From Streptomyces sp. NBC_01335 (GTDB lineage: Bacteria; Actinomycetota; Actinomycetes; Streptomycetales; Streptomycetaceae), in contig NZ_CP108370.1 of assembly GCF_035953295.1 (NCBI RefSeq), forward strand, positions 5,051,001 through 5,115,000: a DNA stretch of 64,000 nt, in the 5' to 3' direction. Shown one piece after another: positions 35,741 through 42,747 of this stretch. The translations under genes and the position numbers were made by a program. Below the pieces are notes generated by a model. It was not told the DNA's origin. It saw only the letters and a program-made list of their open reading frames with translations, and searched no databases. Numbering within the stretch: the stretch's first letter is position 1; each line of letters begins with the position of its first letter.

Positions 35741-35862
35741 TGCGCGGGGCCCGTCCGGAAAGGGGTTCGGTGCTTCCCCGGGCCTCCTTCATCGTGGTGG
35801 ACGACCCGCAGCGCCGCGACGCCATATCCTGAGGGGCGAAGGGACAAGGGAAGGGGCTGTTG

Positions 35863-36408
35863 ATGAGCGTCGACGCGGTCATGCACACCGAGTTCCCCGC
35901 GGGGTACGTGGTCTTCTTCGGTACCGACGGGAAGGTGGTCATGACTCCGCGGAGCGAGGAGCACTCCAACACCATCAGGTCGATGCAGATCGACTCCTTG
36001 GCCCTCGGTCGGCACGCGAAGGTCATCTCCGACGTGTACATCGAATTCCCGGCCGACGAGAACTCTGCCCCCGACTTCGCGATCATGCGGGAGGACGCGC
36101 AGCGGCACGGCAAGCGTTACGGCTTCGAGGACGCGCTGCTGATCGCCGAGGTGGTGTCGGTCTCCTCAGCGCGCAAGGACTACGACGACTGCACCGCGAA
36201 GTACGGCCGCTCCGGCATCCCGGTCTACGTGGTGGTTGACCCGTACGCCGCCGAGGTCGTCGTCCACACCCGACCCGCCGGATCCCGCTACATCGCGGCC
36301 CACACGCACAACTACGGCTCGGGCAAGCTGCCCATCGAGCTGGCCGACGGACGTACGTACACCCTCGACCTGGACGAACTGCCCCGGCCCGAGCCGGACG
36401 CCCGCTGA
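35863..36408 (+). CDS. Uma2-family (DUF820) restriction-endonuclease-like protein
   Basis: 181 residues. The PD-(D/E)xK core is visible as ENSAPDFAI...LLIAEVVSVSSARKD, followed by YGRSGIPVYVVVDPYAAEVV, the Uma2 pattern. The N-terminal Glu-containing motif of most family members (YELxDGELVxM) is replaced by GTDGKVVMTPRSEEH, so one expected acidic residue is missing. Uma2 proteins are very numerous in Streptomyces and their role is unsettled. A decayed region precedes it. Confidence 0.85.
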   Translation: MSVDAVMHTEFPAGYVVFFGTDGKVVMTPRSEEHSNTIRSMQIDSLALGRHAKVISDVYIEFPADENSAPDFAIMREDAQRHGKRYGFEDALLIAEVVSVSSARKDYDDCTAKYGRSGIPVYVVVDPYAAEVVVHTRPAGSRYIAAHTHNYGSGKLPIELADGRTYTLDLDELPRPEPDAR

Positions 36409-36451: not shown

Positions 36452-36646
36452 TCACGACGTCCAGGTGACCGGCGCCCGAGGACATTCGGCTTGTTGTCGG
36501 GCGGTGTGGGGCTGGGCGAAGAGCTGCTGGATTCCGGTGATGCCGAGGAGGCGCCGGAGGAACGGGGGCCGGTTGTCCAGGTGGAGGCATGCACTGCCGC
36601 GGCCGGTCTCTGCCGTCAGGGTGAAGGAGGAGGGCAGAGGCATCAT
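36452..36646 (-). CDS. Miniature STAS-like protein, probably an internally deleted anti-anti-sigma factor
   Basis: 64 residues starting in an ATGA overlap with the stop of the cobalamin-binding protein, so it is translated with it. The first 22 residues (MMPLPSSFTLTAETGRGSAC) resemble the first strand of streptomycete STAS proteins. Residues 23-46 (HLDNRPPFLRRLLGITGIQQ, LF) resemble their last helix (pattern PPxLRRLLxITG). The roughly 50-60 central residues that normally carry the phosphorylatable Ser are missing. Codon use is normal. It may be a recent in-frame deletion or a real minimal protein. The rest of 36409-36451 is empty. Confidence 0.6.
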   Translation of the reverse strand: MMPLPSSFTLTAETGRGSACLHLDNRPPFLRRLLGITGIQQLFAQPHTARQQAECPRAPVTWTS

Positions 36647-37728
36647 GTGGTCGCTCCGGGGTGCGGCCCGGTGGCGGCGGGTGCACGGTCCAGAGCGAAG
36701 CGTGCCTGGTCGAGCAGCCGTGTGGTCCGGGGGAAGTCCTTGAGTTCGGTGGCCAGGATGTCCAGGGCGGGGTGCAGGGAACGGGCGGGTACCTGGCGTG
36801 CGGTGAGGATGCCCGCGGTCCAGGTGATGAACGTGGTGAACAGGTCGTCGTCGTCCGTGTAGAGGGCGACGGCGAGGAAGTCGACGATGTGGGCGAGGTC
36901 TTCGGCGGTGCGCTCACGCTGGTGGTTGGTGTAGGTGGCCATCGCGGGGAAGCGGTCTTCGAGCCGGGTGAGAACGGTCTTGACGAGCTGCGGCTGGGTG
37001 CGGCTGACGAGCGTGTACTCCTGGTCCGTCAGATGGGGCAGGTCGTCGATCTGCTGGTGCCCGCGAGCGGGTGTGGGGGCGGGGATGCCGTCGGCGAGTC
37101 GGCAGGCCGCGGCGCGTGCGTCGGGGGCCCAGGCGTCTGCGCCGAGGAGGCGGGCGTATCGGCCGTCGGGTCCGAAGGCTGCGCCGCCGACGAGGACGGG
37201 GATGCCGATGGCCTGGCAGGCGGTGATCGCCGCGTGGGCGGCGGGCAGCCGGGTGGGGAGGGAGGAGGAAAGGGCCACCGTGTCGGCGCCGCTGTTGTGG
37301 AGGTGGGCGATGAGGTGCGGGGTGGGGACCTGGGCGCCGAGGAAGTCGACCCGCCAGCCGCGCAGGGTGAGGACTTCGGCCAGGAGGCGGGCGGGGAGCG
37401 AGTGCCATTCCTGTTCCACGCAGGCCACGGTGATGTGACCGAGGCTGGGTGGGGTGCGGTGGGCGGGGTGGTGGGCGAGGGCGGCGATGACCCGTTCGGT
37501 GATGGCGCTGGCCGCGTGCTCCTGCGCGACGCTGAGCCGGTTGGCGGCCCATTCGGCGCCCACCTTCGCCTGCACGGGGGCGATGAGCGCCAGCAGGGCC
37601 GTCTCCGCGTCCAGGCCGTCGTCGAGAGCCGTGAAGACGATGTCCGCGGCGCGGTACTCGTCACGGGACGTGACGGCCGCCCACAACTGATCCCGCAGAC
37701 CCTGGACGTCGGTGCTCGTGGGGGTCAC
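36643..37728 (-). CDS. Cobalamin-binding sensor protein with CarH-type photoreceptor signature, no DNA-binding domain
   Basis: 361 residues from a GTG overlapping the upstream phosphatase stop (GTGA). Residues about 10-95 form the helical cap of B12-binding proteins and contain W60-x9-E70-H71 (EWAANRLSVAQEHAAS), the motif that defines adenosylcobalamin photoreceptors of the CarH type. Residues 97-215 form the Rossmann-like B12-binding domain with the probable lower ligand His109 in E-W-H (CVEQEWHSLPARLL), then SSSLPTR and VLVGGAAFG. The last 125 residues are an all-helical domain of unknown type in place of the MerR domain of CarH/LitR. It is encoded between a PP2C phosphatase and a STAS-like protein, so it may signal by protein contact rather than by binding DNA (inference). 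Confidence 0.88.
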   Translation of the reverse strand: MTPTSTDVQGLRDQLWAAVTSRDEYRAADIVFTALDDGLDAETALLALIAPVQAKVGAEWAANRLSVAQEHAASAITERVIAALAHHPAHRTPPSLGHITVACVEQEWHSLPARLLAEVLTLRGWRVDFLGAQVPTPHLIAHLHNSGADTVALSSSLPTRLPAAHAAITACQAIGIPVLVGGAAFGPDGRYARLLGADAWAPDARAAACRLADGIPAPTPARGHQQIDDLPHLTDQEYTLVSRTQPQLVKTVLTRLEDRFPAMATYTNHQRERTAEDLAHIVDFLAVALYTDDDDLFTTFITWTAGILTARQVPARSLHPALDILATELKDFPRTTRLLDQARFALDRAPAATGPHPGATT

Positions 37729-39446
37729 GCGGTGTACCTGCCCCGGGTGCGGCCGTTCACGGCGCTGAGATGCTGGGTGCGGGGTGCACTGATGGCGATG
37801 AGGGCCATGTCGTCGTGGCGGCCGTCGCGCAGCCACTGGGAGGCGAGCATCTGGATGCGCTCGACGACGGCTTCGGCCGGCATGTCGGCGCACTCGGCCA
37901 GGGCCTGTCGCAGGCGTTCGTCTCCGAACATCTCGTCACCCAGGGGGCCGCCGCGGGCTTCGGTGAATCCGTCGGTGTAGAGAAGGCAGGTGTCGCCCGG
38001 CTCCAGAACGGCTTCCACGGTGAGGGCCTCGATCGTGGGGAGGACCCCTATCAGCGAACCGCGGGTGGGGACCTCCTCGATGATTCCGTCGGCGCGGACC
38101 ACGAGGGGGCTGGGATGGCCGGCCGACGTGAGGCGCAGTCGCACCTCGTTCTCCGTACGGTGCACCGAGGCCAGTACGAGCGTGGCGAAGCGGGTGTGAT
38201 GGGAGCTCAGCAGGGCGCCGTTGAGGAGTCGCAGCATTCGTTCGTGGTCGTCAGCCATCGGGAGCAGCGCTTGCAGGGTGTTGCGGATCTTGCCGGTCAG
38301 GACGGCGGCTTCCAGTCCCTTGCCGCACACGTCCCCGAGGACCACCAGGGACGCGTCCGCCACGGTGGTTCCGGGGTGGACGTCGTAGAAGTCGCCCCCG
38401 ACCTGTTCGGCGGAGCCGGCGGGGCGGTAGCCGCCGGCGATCTCCACTCCGTCCAGGCGTTGCAGGCTCGGGGGCAGCAGGTCGCGCATCAAGGTCTGGG
38501 TGATGGCGCTCTGCTCGCTGTAGAGGCGGGCGGCGGACAGCGCGGCACCGGCTCGGGCCGCGAACAGGCGGGCGAAGACCTCTTCGTTCTCGTTGAACCG
38601 GGTGCGACCGCTGCGGCGGAGCAGGATCAGGGCTCCCGCCGGCACCCCGTGGCCGGGCAGGGGGGTCACGACGACCGACTCGACCTTCTCGGTGAAGCCG
38701 TCGGGGAGGACCCACGCCGGCAGTGCGGCGGGGTCGATCCAGCGCGACGGTACGGGCGGGAACCCCTGGAGCGCTTCCGCGAGTCCGGGGAGATCGGACG
38801 GGTCGGCGACGAGCAGAGCGCGGTCGGCTTCCTGCCCGGTGAGGGCTCGGGAGACGGGCAGTTCGCCGCCCTTCGCGGGGGCGACGACGATGGCGACGTC
38901 CGCGAGGTACTCGGCGGCGAGCTGCGCGGTCGCGGCCATGCACCTGTCGGTGTTCAACGAGGCCAGCAGGACATTGGACGCCTCCGAAAGGAAACGAGTG
39001 CGTTCACGCTCCGTGAGAAGCGCCTCTTCCGCGAGCCGCCGATCGGTGTCGTCGACCAGCCACCACACCACACTCCCCTCCGGTGTGCGCGTGGCATGTG
39101 CCTCGAAGCTCTGGGCCCCGATCCGCCCCGACACCGGGGCCGGCGCGGCGGACTCCTCGTCGGCCCGTCGGGCGGAGCCGATGTGTGCCTCCGTCATGCG
39201 TCGGTGGGCTTCGGCCAACCAGCCGGGAGCCACGTCCCGCATGCTCGCCCCGGGCGTCGCACCGCCCAGGAGGAGGTCGGCCGCGCTGTTCAGATCAAGA
39301 AGCGTCCCAGCCGCGTCCGCCACCATGGCGGGGTAGGGGGCCAAGCCCCACCAACTGGTTCGGGTAGCGGTATTTTCCCTGGTTGAGGCCATGGAATAGG
39401 GCCCGCCCTGGGCGAACCGCACCACCTTCCCCTGCTCGTTGAACAT
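37725..39446 (-). CDS. PAS-GAF-PP2C (RsbU/SpoIIE-type) serine phosphatase
   Basis: 573 residues from ATG 39446; ATG 39392 is an alternative. PAS domain about residues 30-130 (APYPAMVADAAGTLLDLNSA), GAF about 140-310 (LLASLNTDRCMAATAQLAAE), PP2C-SpoIIE about 330-555. The metal-binding residues are intact: GGDFYDV, GDVCGKGLEAAVL, LLYTDGFTEAR and GRHDDMALIAIS. Such enzymes dephosphorylate STAS anti-anti-sigma factors and so free a SigB-type sigma factor. It is coupled by GTGA overlap to the cobalamin-binding protein, making that the likely signal input. A 14-bp palindrome (TTGCCGTGCGGCAA, 39449-39462) abuts the start. Confidence 0.92.
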   Translation of the reverse strand: MFNEQGKVVRFAQGGPYSMASTRENTATRTSWWGLAPYPAMVADAAGTLLDLNSAADLLLGGATPGASMRDVAPGWLAEAHRRMTEAHIGSARRADEESAAPAPVSGRIGAQSFEAHATRTPEGSVVWWLVDDTDRRLAEEALLTERERTRFLSEASNVLLASLNTDRCMAATAQLAAEYLADVAIVVAPAKGGELPVSRALTGQEADRALLVADPSDLPGLAEALQGFPPVPSRWIDPAALPAWVLPDGFTEKVESVVVTPLPGHGVPAGALILLRRSGRTRFNENEEVFARLFAARAGAALSAARLYSEQSAITQTLMRDLLPPSLQRLDGVEIAGGYRPAGSAEQVGGDFYDVHPGTTVADASLVVLGDVCGKGLEAAVLTGKIRNTLQALLPMADDHERMLRLLNGALLSSHHTRFATLVLASVHRTENEVRLRLTSAGHPSPLVVRADGIIEEVPTRGSLIGVLPTIEALTVEAVLEPGDTCLLYTDGFTEARGGPLGDEMFGDERLRQALAECADMPAEAVVERIQMLASQWLRDGRHDDMALIAISAPRTQHLSAVNGRTRGRYTA

Positions 39447-39593
39447 ATTTGCCGTGCGGCAAGCATCCTCCAGGGGTGTCCTCGATGGCAACCTGCCCCC
39501 GCGTGCCGTGTTCCCGTCCCGGTGTGCTGCACGCGAGGCGCACACCGCGGGACCGGAACCTTCACGCGTCGATCACACAAGTGCGCCCGGAGG

Positions 39594-39761
39594 CTAGGCC
39601 GTGTCTGACCATTCCCGCCGGGCGGTCGGCGCCCGGCACGGCACCTCGCGGTGTTGTCGGACCGCCCGCGTACAGCCAGTACGCGGGCGGTCCTCCGCCT
39701 TGCGAGGCACCGCACCGGACACCGCCCGCGGATCCGACGCGCATGGTCAGACACGGCCTAG
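39594..39761. mobile_element. 168-bp MITE with 19-bp terminal inverted repeats
   Basis: The ends 39594-39612 (CTAGGCCGTGTCTGACCAT) and 39743-39761 are perfect inverted repeats of 19 bp, including CTAG at each outer edge, the type of target used by IS5-related elements. Inside, a 15-bp hairpin with a 5-base loop (39659-39673 / 39679-39693) sits near the centre. There is no coding capacity. The right CTAG supplies the TAG stop codon of the neighbouring PP2C gene. A related end occurs at 42748. Confidence 0.8.
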
Positions 39762-40948
39762 TTCTCCCGTTCGACGGTGGGGCGTCCGTGCCAGTCCAGG
39801 CACATCACCAGCGAGTCGTCGGCGGCCGGGCCGGAGCCGCGGTGTCCGAGCAGTTCCTGCAGCATCGCCCGGGGCACCTGGGAGGCGGGGAGCAGCCGCG
39901 TGCTGGTGATCGACCTCGCCAGGGCCCGCAGGCTGTACTTCTCTCCGCCGGGTGACAGTGCGTCGTAGACGCCGTCACTGATGAAGAACAGGCGGTCACC
40001 GGGCTCGACGGCAAGGCGCTGGGGAACGTAGGCGGTGTCCTCGAACATCCCCAGCGGATCCTGCGCCTCCAACTCGACCGTCTCGACCGTGCCCGCCCGA
40101 AGCCGCCACACCCGCGGCGAGCCCGCGTCGATGACCTCCACCTCACCGGTCGGCAGATGGAACCGGAGCAGCAGCGTCGCCAGGTACTTGGTGCCCCCGT
40201 ACTGCCCGTGGACGGCCTGGTCCGCGAGATACGCCTGGTCGCTGAGGCTCAGTCCGGCGCGGCGGGCGTTGCGCAGGGCGTTGACGGCGAGGTTGGTCAG
40301 CAGCGCGGCGTCGATCCCCTCGCCCATGCCGTTGCTCACGGTCAGGTACAGATCGTCGGCGGAGGCGGACCAGTCGAAGCTGTCGCCGAAGATGGCGTAC
40401 GCGGGCTCCAGTTGCGCTCCGAGGCTGTACTCGGGGCGGGCGCAGGAGCGGCCGGGCAGCAGCTGCCACTGCATCTCGGCGGCCAGCGTCAGCCGCTCGG
40501 CCCGACGGGCCTGGAGGAACACGTCGGTGTCGCGTCCCGCCACGACCACTTCATGAGCCAGCGCGTCCGCGCACAACTGGAGTTCCCCGGCCACGTCCGC
40601 CTCCTCCGTGTCCCCGGTGGCCGGCAGGGTGACGCTCAGCACGCCGAGCCGGTCCCCGCGGACGCTGACCGGCAGGTGCACCGTTACCGTGGAAGCCGGG
40701 GCGTCGTACACGCAGTGCGCCTCCTGGGCCCCGAACGCGCGGCCCGGCGCGCTCTCGTGCACCGGCAACGGCCGCAGCGTGTGCGGCAGCACACCGACGG
40801 GCTGCAGCCTGGTCATGGCGTAATCGGCCATCAACAGTTCCACGGCGTGGGCGCGGAAACGATCCTCGATCAGGGAACGGAGCACGTCGAAGATCTCGTG
40901 GGGCGCGGCCTCGCGCAGAGCGCGCTCAACCGCACTGGGTCTCTCCAC
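39758..40948 (-). CDS. GAF-PP2C-like phosphatase with degenerate metal site
   Basis: 396 residues from a GTG (AAGGAAAGGAAG upstream). N-terminal GAF-like domain (about 1-150), then a SpoIIE/PP2C domain (170-390). YTDG and DD equivalents are present (FFISDGVYDALSPGG, AADDSLVMCLDW), and GGDxxD is FGDSFDW. The second motif reads SNGMGEGIDAALLT where GDVxGKGxxAA is expected, with Asn for the metal Asp. Activity may be reduced or altered. The stop codon TAG lies in the CTAG at the MITE edge, so the C-terminus may have been trimmed by insertion. Divergent from a MarR gene. Confidence 0.85.
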   Translation of the reverse strand: MERPSAVERALREAAPHEIFDVLRSLIEDRFRAHAVELLMADYAMTRLQPVGVLPHTLRPLPVHESAPGRAFGAQEAHCVYDAPASTVTVHLPVSVRGDRLGVLSVTLPATGDTEEADVAGELQLCADALAHEVVVAGRDTDVFLQARRAERLTLAAEMQWQLLPGRSCARPEYSLGAQLEPAYAIFGDSFDWSASADDLYLTVSNGMGEGIDAALLTNLAVNALRNARRAGLSLSDQAYLADQAVHGQYGGTKYLATLLLRFHLPTGEVEVIDAGSPRVWRLRAGTVETVELEAQDPLGMFEDTAYVPQRLAVEPGDRLFFISDGVYDALSPGGEKYSLRALARSITSTRLLPASQVPRAMLQELLGHRGSGPAADDSLVMCLDWHGRPTVEREN

Positions 40949-41045
40949 CGGTACCGGTCTTCCTTTCCTTCACATATCTTCATCTATGCGACTGCTCACA
41001 TCGACCAGCCAGAACGGGCACGAAGCGCCCACTCGGGAGTGTCAC

Positions 41046-41534
41046 ATGCGCGAGGCCCACGCCTCCCACGACCAGCACGCCTCCCGCACCGCGCCCGGAA
41101 TCGGCGACATGCTGGAGCTGCTGGAGGCAGCGTGGGAGCGCCACCGCGACACGCTCAGCACCGCGCCGCTCTCCTCCGCCCAAACCCGTGTGATGTACCT
41201 CATCGAACGCGAACCAGGCATCAACCTGACCGCGCTCGGCCGTCGCCTCTCCTCGGCCGCACCGTCCGTCACCCGCCTGTGCGACCGCCTCCAGGCCGCC
41301 GGATTCCTCCGCCGCACCCCCCACACCGAGGACCGGCGCGCCACGCAACTGGAACTCACGGAGGCCGGCGAGGCCTACCTCCACGGCATCCGGCACCGCC
41401 GGGAACAGGTCCTGTGCCAGGCCATGGATCGCATGAGCCCCGACGCCCAGAGCGCCCTAGCCGTAGGCCTCGCCGCTCTGTGCGACGCCGTCGGCGAGCC
41501 CACCGCGCAACCCGAGCACCGCGAAACCGCCTGA
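41046..41534 (+). CDS. MarR-family transcriptional regulator
   Basis: 162 residues from ATG 41046 (GGGAG upstream). ATG 40986 would add 20 residues, but those codons lack the usual GC-rich third positions. Winged helix: SAQTRVMYLIEREPGINLTA, AAPSVTRLCDRLQAAGFL and TEDRRATQLELTEAG. Divergent from the GAF-PP2C gene with about 100 bases between, which must hold both promoters. Its location within a sigma/phosphatase cluster suggests that it regulates part of it (inference). Confidence 0.85.
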   Translation: MREAHASHDQHASRTAPGIGDMLELLEAAWERHRDTLSTAPLSSAQTRVMYLIEREPGINLTALGRRLSSAAPSVTRLCDRLQAAGFLRRTPHTEDRRATQLELTEAGEAYLHGIRHRREQVLCQAMDRMSPDAQSALAVGLAALCDAVGEPTAQPEHRETA

Positions 41535-41685: not shown

Positions 41686-42588
41686 TCAGGCCACGACGTT
41701 CATGCCTTCGCGGAGCTTGCGCAGGATGCGGTTCAGCAGCCGGGAGACGTGCATCTGGGAGATGCCGAGTTCCGCGCCGATCTGGGCCTGGGTCATCTCG
41801 GCGCCGAAGCGCATCCGGACGATGAGGCGCTCGCGTTCGTCGAGCTGCTCCAGGTGTGGGGCCAGGTCGTGGAGGTTCTCGAAGGTCTCCATCGCCGTGT
41901 CCCAGTCGCCGAGCACCTCGGCGTAGCCACGCTGTTGGCGCCCGTCGTCGCCGTCGGAGGAGGGAACGTCGAGCGATCCGGCCGAGTACCCGTTGGCGGC
42001 CACGAGCCCCTCGACGACCTCTTCCTCGCTCAGGGCGAGGTGGGCGGCGAGCTCCTTGACCGTCGGGTCCCGGTCGAGCCTGACGGACAGCGTCTCCTTG
42101 GCCTTGGCGAGCTCGACCCGCAGCTCCTGCAGGCGCCGGGGGACATGGACGGACCAGCTGGTGTCGCGGAAGAACCGCTTGATCTCGCCCACGATGTACG
42201 GGATCGCGAAGGTGGTGAACTCGACTTCGCGTGACAGGTCGAAGCGGTCGATGGCCTTGATCAGGCCGATCGTGCCGACCTGGACGATGTCCTCGGTGTC
42301 GTCTCCGGCGCGGTTGCGGAAGCGCTGCGCGGCGTAGCGGACGAGGGAGAGGTTCATCTCGATGAGTGTGTTGCGCGCGTACTGGTAGGTGTGGGTGCCT
42401 TCCTCCAGCGTCCGGAGGCGGTCGAAGAACACCTTCGACAGGGACCGTGCGTCCTGGGGAGCGATCTTCCCGGCATCCTCGACCCACGGCAGATCCTCCA
42501 CCGCGGACCGTGTGTCCACACCGGTCATGACGCACGGCTCCGTGAGCACGTTGCGTTCCGCGGCGGTTCGCGCCGACACGGCCGTCAT
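41686..42588 (-). CDS. SigB/SigF/SigG-type stress sigma factor
   Basis: 300 residues. Region 2 (NLSLVRYAAQRFRNRAGDDT, EDIVQVGTIGLIKAIDRFD, EVEFTTFAIPYIVGEIKRFF, RDTSWSVHVPRR) is the pattern of the streptomycete SigB family. Region 3 (RDPTVKELAAHLALSEEEVV) and region 4 (QLDERERLIVRMRFGAEMTQ, QAQIGAELGISQMHVSRLL) follow. GAAGGTG precedes the ATG at 42588. No anti-sigma kinase gene is adjacent, unlike many sigB loci, but two PP2C phosphatases and a STAS remnant are within 6 kb. I did not find a clear GTTT/GGGTAT self-type promoter. Confidence 0.94.
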   Translation of the reverse strand: MTAVSARTAAERNVLTEPCVMTGVDTRSAVEDLPWVEDAGKIAPQDARSLSKVFFDRLRTLEEGTHTYQYARNTLIEMNLSLVRYAAQRFRNRAGDDTEDIVQVGTIGLIKAIDRFDLSREVEFTTFAIPYIVGEIKRFFRDTSWSVHVPRRLQELRVELAKAKETLSVRLDRDPTVKELAAHLALSEEEVVEGLVAANGYSAGSLDVPSSDGDDGRQQRGYAEVLGDWDTAMETFENLHDLAPHLEQLDERERLIVRMRFGAEMTQAQIGAELGISQMHVSRLLNRILRKLREGMNVVA

Positions 42589-42747
42589 GGTGTCACCTTC
42601 CCTTTTCCGCACTCCTACGCGCGGTCCTTTGCCCCGCCGCCCGGAGGCCATTCCCGCTTCTTTCGGAAAACTTCTGATGTGTCGTCACCGAGCCGGCCGA
42701 GATGAACCGGAGGGGCCGTGTCGCAGCAGGCGTGCGCGAGGCCGCTC

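Follow-up and report, generated by a model that had tools for sequence, protein, structure and literature searches.

A standalone photocobilin gene and its probable PP2C phosphatase partner in Streptomyces sp. NBC_01335

Photocobilins and related switches

The photocobilins, a family of B12/bilin photoreceptors founded by Zhang et al. in 2024 (PMC10979010), include SasPcob, a standalone photocobilin of Saccharothrix syringae with the structures 8J2W and 8J2X (PMC10979010). In the same study a STRING interaction network predicted proteins of the STAS, SpoIIE and PP2C types as partners of SasPcob, and a gene-neighbourhood analysis was run as well; in the available part of its text SasPcob was tested solely on a foreign diguanylate cyclase, in trans (PMC10979010). 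Here we describe a photocobilin-type gene in a 64,000-nucleotide stretch of the Streptomyces sp. NBC_01335 genome (contig NZ_CP108370.1, positions 5,051,001 to 5,115,000; hereafter the window; host genome size 8.36 Mb). The preliminary description of this DNA knew of no characterised system of this composition, a view that has to be abandoned, as the gene encodes a photocobilin and such partners had already been predicted for SasPcob. The operon pairs the photocobilin with a stress-signalling PP2C phosphatase that it probably switches.

Bacillus offers a familiar case of a PP2C that is coupled to a sensor, acts on a STAS protein and has light as an input: RsbP/RsbU and RsbV form a partner switch there, and YtvA feeds light into SigB. 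The window differs in that its photoreceptor is a separate B12/bilin protein and that anti-sigma and sigma factors lie outside the operon. AbDPcob (8J2Y, sensor), as far as its accessible description goes, has a fused diguanylate cyclase and a histidine at the biliverdin aspartate, whereas the window photocobilin goes with a separate PP2C. AerR (7te2) is, in the accessible account, a B12-binding regulator that resembles the present protein in having no DNA-binding domain of its own and acting on a partner protein. The S. coelicolor genes SCO7323-7327 were considered as a match and rejected, being a different, RsbR/RsbV-type cluster in the accessible parts of the relevant papers (PMC8346170, PMC9739823, PMC2687793, PMC7244524). 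In the literature searched, terms for a B12/bilin photoreceptor combined with SpoIIE/STAS occurred together only in PMC10979010, and the available text of a paper on the light response of M. kansasii makes no mention of cobalamin, B12 or a photoreceptor. New here are the near-invariant pairing with PP2C as against the GGDEF neighbours seen elsewhere, the STAS loss in this strain and a linkage to carotenoid (crt) genes.

The photoreceptor and its operon

The gene (36643..37728, minus strand; start 37728, end 36643) begins with GTG and encodes 361 amino acids (aa); the preliminary description had the coordinates right, and the strand is corrected here to minus. Residues 11-84 (37477..37698, minus) match B12-binding_2 (PF02607, E 2.5e-13) and correspond to a four-helix cap above the upper axial side, in which W60, E70 and H71 map to W61/E71/H72 of SasPcob. 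Residues 98-206 (37111..37437, minus) match B12-binding (PF02310, E 9e-17), a Rossmann domain with the putative lower ligand H109 and with H138, the counterpart of SasPcob H137. The W60-x9-E70-H71 motif and H109 are as first described. W-x9-EH by itself is not very rare, since it arose in 192 of 20,000 shuffles of the photocobilin sequence; here it is joined by E107-x-H109, and a cap and Rossmann B12 domain with W-x9-EH and E/D-x-H is the photocobilin arrangement. Of 147 close relatives, 144 keep W, E and H and three are gapped at those positions; the closest relatives by photocobilin protein are mostly Streptomyces.

The C-terminus is all-helical in the structure model, as had been described from the letters alone, but its nature as a bilin-binding globin domain had gone unrecognised. 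Residues 231-349, approximately (36682..37038, minus), are modelled as a globin-like domain of five helices that follows the B12 domain in one chain, as in photocobilins, and would hold biliverdin: the SasPcob biliverdin contacts Asp270, Trp296 and His137 correspond to D277, W303 and H138. The structure prediction, a step that the preliminary description had proposed, matches SasPcob across residues 5-353. The two proteins share domain order and length, 49% identity (160/327 aligned) and all seven chromophore residues checked. They differ in that alanine, not glutamine, follows the tryptophan here, that only a STAS remnant is present in the window, and that the photochemistry measured for SasPcob (PMC10979010) is predicted here.

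Pfam found no helix-turn-helix family in the 361-aa protein, and hence no MerR-type DNA-binding domain, so the earlier claim of a CarH-type adenosylcobalamin (AdoCbl) pocket in a protein without a DNA-binding domain is borne out. Membership of the CarH/LitR family itself was rejected: the protein scores 48.3 bits against an NF052513 cut-off of 400, has no MerR domain and carries the extra globin domain. Judged by sequence and model, the gene is a standalone photocobilin, and this family membership is solid; its product would be expected to bind AdoCbl and biliverdin and to respond to green and red light.

Upstream lies a SpoIIE/RsbU-type PP2C gene (37725..39545, minus) with GAF- and PAS-like N-terminal segments and a true start that is likely near 39392 (M52). 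Its product, like the photocobilin, is full-length, and its catalytic motifs are intact. Stop and start codons overlap in the sequence as GTGA between PP2C and photocobilin (37725..37728, minus) and as ATGA between photocobilin and the STAS remnant (36643..36646, minus), both of which had been noted before. The C-terminal tail of the phosphatase (GHTRGRYTA type; 37725-37790) is strongly conserved past the catalytic domain; its coding sequence runs into the probable ribosome-binding region for the photocobilin, which makes protein and RNA constraints inseparable there. The third gene (36452..36646, minus) had been called STAS-like. This 64-aa open reading frame (ORF) has no Pfam or NCBIfam match, and alignment with the intact STAS genes of loci L009 and L011 identifies it as an anti-anti-sigma gene remnant with a 189-bp in-frame internal deletion, flanked at both ends by a short CCACCT/GCACCT-like repeat. 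The lost 189 bp include the conserved Asp-Ser, and with it the phosphoacceptor; in the STAS profile set, DS is found in 54/59 relatives and DT in 2/59.

The conserved PP2C pairing and the proposed contact

Gene order was compared in two sets of loci that share some records. Set A comprises the best 80 of 169 relatives in genome_contigs. Set B starts from the 71 places at which 66 of 147 Streptomycetales genomes carry a photocobilin; 70 of these places were fetched, all but one in G089, and one of the 70 is the window's own gene, hence 69. A PP2C gene matching the partner profile lies upstream of the photocobilin in 80/80 and 67/69 loci, and a STAS gene downstream in 78/80 and 57/69, so the three-gene order described for the window recurs widely. 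No more than 150 bases separate the PP2C stop from the start of the photocobilin match in 143 of 149 PP2C-bearing loci (own gene counted), and the two loci without PP2C (L125, L132) hold photocobilin copies that lack the W-E-H part. By chance, a PP2C gene would be expected within 1 kb in about 0.4% of loci, as calculated from the 31 SpoIIE matches in the genome. Moreover, there are eight B12-domain places in the host genome, and a SpoIIE match adjoins only the two photocobilins.

The second of these belongs to another complete PP2C-photocobilin-STAS operon (L120, G000:C1:7293000-7303500). Its photocobilin is 67% identical to that of the window and has its own PP2C and an intact STAS. The window PP2C has no paralogue nearly as close as the L120 phosphatase (698 vs 167 bits), as though the two genes of the pair travelled together. 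HATPase-type genes occur near L120 and in genomes G103, G116 and G138, and we draw no inference from them because that family is matched 68 times in the genome.

The gene order well supports PP2C as the partner of the photocobilin. We therefore propose, at a probability of about 0.68, that the standalone photocobilin acts by light-dependent contact on the PP2C encoded upstream, altering STAS dephosphorylation and feeding a SigB-type partner switch. The proposal builds on the family, the pocket residues, the operon and the STAS deletion as read from sequence and model; from these we infer chromophore binding, photochemistry, the contact, its direction and its targets. In the dark, AdoCbl, with H109 as lower ligand and with W60, E70 and H71 enclosing the upper side, would hold a head-to-tail dimer, and biliverdin, bound in the globin domain at D277 and W303 together with H138 from the partner chain, would add red sensitivity. 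Light would cleave the Co-C bond; the adenosyl group would leave, the E70/H71 helix would shift and the dimer would dissociate. The altered photocobilin would then contact the PP2C and change the dephosphorylation of STAS anti-anti-sigma proteins, whose changed state would be the light input to the SigB-type switch. The earlier idea of a signal passed by protein contact to a phosphatase/anti-anti-sigma switch is accordingly kept for the PP2C, where contact is probable, and given up for the STAS relay, which is broken in this strain.

Several observations weigh against this proposal. Conserved gene order speaks for a functional link rather than for contact, and the contact might be with STAS rather than with PP2C. 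No fusion of photocobilin and PP2C in one ORF, which would be a sign of contact, was found among the ORFs examined. An internal stop is flagged in 9/72 photocobilin matches of the 147-genome sample, which implies occasional loss of the gene, and a heme oxygenase match is absent from 8/66 photocobilin genomes. The STAS gene is truncated in the window, and the profile misses it in 12/69 whole-genome and 2/80 genome_contigs loci.

The photocobilin might act on STAS, sequestering or releasing it, while PP2C merely resets STAS. The frequent downstream STAS gene fits this, as do the 4-base overlaps at which 54 of 61 motif-found set-A STAS genes begin; even in L172 a STAS gene is near, lying divergent from PP2C (by Pfam), and L175 is similar by profile. 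However, PP2C is kept more faithfully than STAS, loci L121, L122, L171, L172 and L175 keep PP2C without a STAS gene directly 3' of the photocobilin, and the STAS gene has decayed in both the window strain and L150 while photocobilin and PP2C are still open. We consider STAS unlikely to be the primary target. Inspection of 12 loci lacking a STAS hit found STAS in another frame in L092, a decayed STAS in L150 and a photocobilin that is itself out of frame in L123; in the other nine, none was seen in 560 bases downstream. Such loss or decay in several loci marks STAS as the less constant third member, with photocobilin and PP2C as the core.

With its cognate STAS deleted, the window PP2C would need another STAS protein to act on, the one encoded in the second operon being an example; otherwise the branch is defective. 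It could also be that the whole operon is decaying here and has lost its signalling, as the STAS deletion, the decayed STAS of L150 and the second complete operon in the same genome might suggest. The photocobilin and PP2C are both full-length with intact motifs, which makes general decay distinctly improbable.

Sigma factors, carotenoid genes and divergent photocobilins

The preliminary description ended the relay at a SigB-type sigma factor encoded nearby. A SigB/SigF/SigG-family gene does occur (41686..42651, minus; TIGR02980, 287.5 bits, cut-off 234), one of 7 such matches in the genome. It lies 4 kb upstream, past a second SpoIIE-type PP2C gene (39758..40948, minus; PF07228, E 3.5e-36), which is a neighbour in some close relatives (matched in 23/80 relative loci), and past a MarR-type regulator gene on the opposite strand (40986..41534, plus; PF01047), and is therefore not a member of the operon. 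Such a sigma gene is found near the photocobilin in 3/80 loci (L058, L076, L078) and 0/40 loci (P ~0.15), and was rejected as a general neighbour for want of enrichment. No HATPase_c_2 anti-sigma kinase match occurs anywhere within the 64-kb window, and the operon contains neither a cognate anti-sigma kinase nor a sigma gene, unlike an RsbU-RsbV-RsbW-sigma operon. A complete relay from photocobilin through PP2C and the operon's own STAS to this sigma factor, which the three loci with a nearby sigma would favour, is very improbable here, given the truncated STAS, the two intervening genes, the missing kinase match and the lack of conservation. In L078 the sigma gene directly follows STAS on the same strand, and the chain first described may hold in that single species. 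On the other flank, a Uma2-type putative nuclease gene (35860..36408, by Pfam) is convergent with the STAS remnant.

A different link emerged with crt genes. Among the 147 genomes, those that match lycopene cyclase strongly contain 60 photocobilin places. The cyclase gene is on the same contig in 33 cases, within 20 kb in 11 of them (2.5-13 kb) and at 67 kb to 8.4 Mb in the other 22. Random placement predicts about 0.3 cases within 20 kb, or 2.0 under the harsh assumption that both genes are confined to 1.2 Mb of arms; as a control, heme oxygenase lies within 20 kb of lycopene cyclase in 0/30 same-contig cases. On the photocobilin tree the near-crt label takes 6 changes, at least 4 of them on well-supported branches, and is not confined to one clade. 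It is nevertheless clustered (3/500 shuffles need as few changes), so the 11 cases are not independent events, and gain and loss are indistinguishable. In set A, lycopene cyclase lies within 5 kb in 5/80 loci. Without correction for relatedness, lycopene cyclase is found in 55/66 photocobilin genomes vs 26/81 others (Fisher 3e-10) and, within the same genus, in 55/63 vs 26/69 (Fisher 4e-9); a heme oxygenase match is found in 58/66 vs 59/81 (P 0.04, likewise uncorrected). The window photocobilin itself is 2.2 Mb from the crt genes; for the second photocobilin the distance to a lycopene cyclase gene is 13 kb, and a LitR-like (MerR-B12) gene lies in this interval. We found no report of this link: the available text of PMC10979010 contains neither "lycopene" nor "LitR" and uses "carotenoid" once, for CarH, although the photoglobin paper of Schneider et al. 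2022 may discuss gene contexts.

These data bear on whether the protein senses light at all. CarH-type proteins react both to light and to the supply of AdoCbl, and the light response of the window photocobilin is a prediction, so that the protein might instead report B12 or bilin status, or redox. Against this, the residues for the SasPcob light mechanism and the bilin pocket are kept in close relatives, and photocobilin genes cluster and co-occur with carotenoid genes, which in Streptomyces are light-induced through LitR and LitS according to the accessible part of PMC12705666. A status sensor is hence quite unlikely. Tentatively, and with well under even odds, photocobilin and PP2C may form a second, red-extended actinobacterial light input parallel to LitR, setting STAS phosphorylation and thereby SigB-type sigma factors with carotenoid and photoprotection genes under their control. 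Such an input would account for the repeated adjacency to crt clusters and the SigB-type sigma gene between operon and crtY in S. griseus NCTC13033 (L058; 3280-9538), where PP2C, photocobilin, STAS, a sigma gene on the other strand and crtY lie together. In S. griseus, CrtS is presumably a SigB-like activator of carotenoid genes.

Across the phylum, 25 of 396 genomes had a match at E 1e-20 or better, and 23 places were fetched. PP2C lies upstream in L160, L161, L162, L171, L172 and L175; the remaining places, L181 and six scanned neighbourhoods apart, had no PP2C by the partner profile. L171, L172 and L175 are divergent photocobilins (group f5/g7) without the biliverdin aspartate; D277 is lost in these and in L121 and L122, and even PP2C-linked forms may therefore differ in bilin use. 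Outside the class, Pfam scans of one or two genes in each of six other neighbourhoods showed GGDEF upstream of standalone photocobilins in L163 (5238-7449), L166 (4362-6371) and L173 (5432-7494), and none in the one or two genes scanned at L168, L169 and L177. An antibiotic-biosynthesis-monooxygenase-type gene separates the GGDEF gene from the photocobilin in L163, and one also precedes the L168 photocobilin. L181 (5151-7402) encodes a B12-only protein of about 223 aa that keeps W-E-H, lacks the globin domain and overlaps a downstream PAS-GAF-PP2C gene, possibly a simpler B12 photosensor-phosphatase pair. A photocobilin adjoining its output enzyme fits the published diguanylate cyclase fusion and the effect of SasPcob on that enzyme in trans.

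The near-invariant PP2C neighbour points to a candidate target of standalone photocobilins, and strains that have lost the STAS gene offer a natural test of which step in the chain is important. The crt linkage is suggestive of a photoprotective role. If control of PP2C by the photocobilin is true, protein dephosphorylation would gain a switch operated by green and red light, of use to optogenetics.
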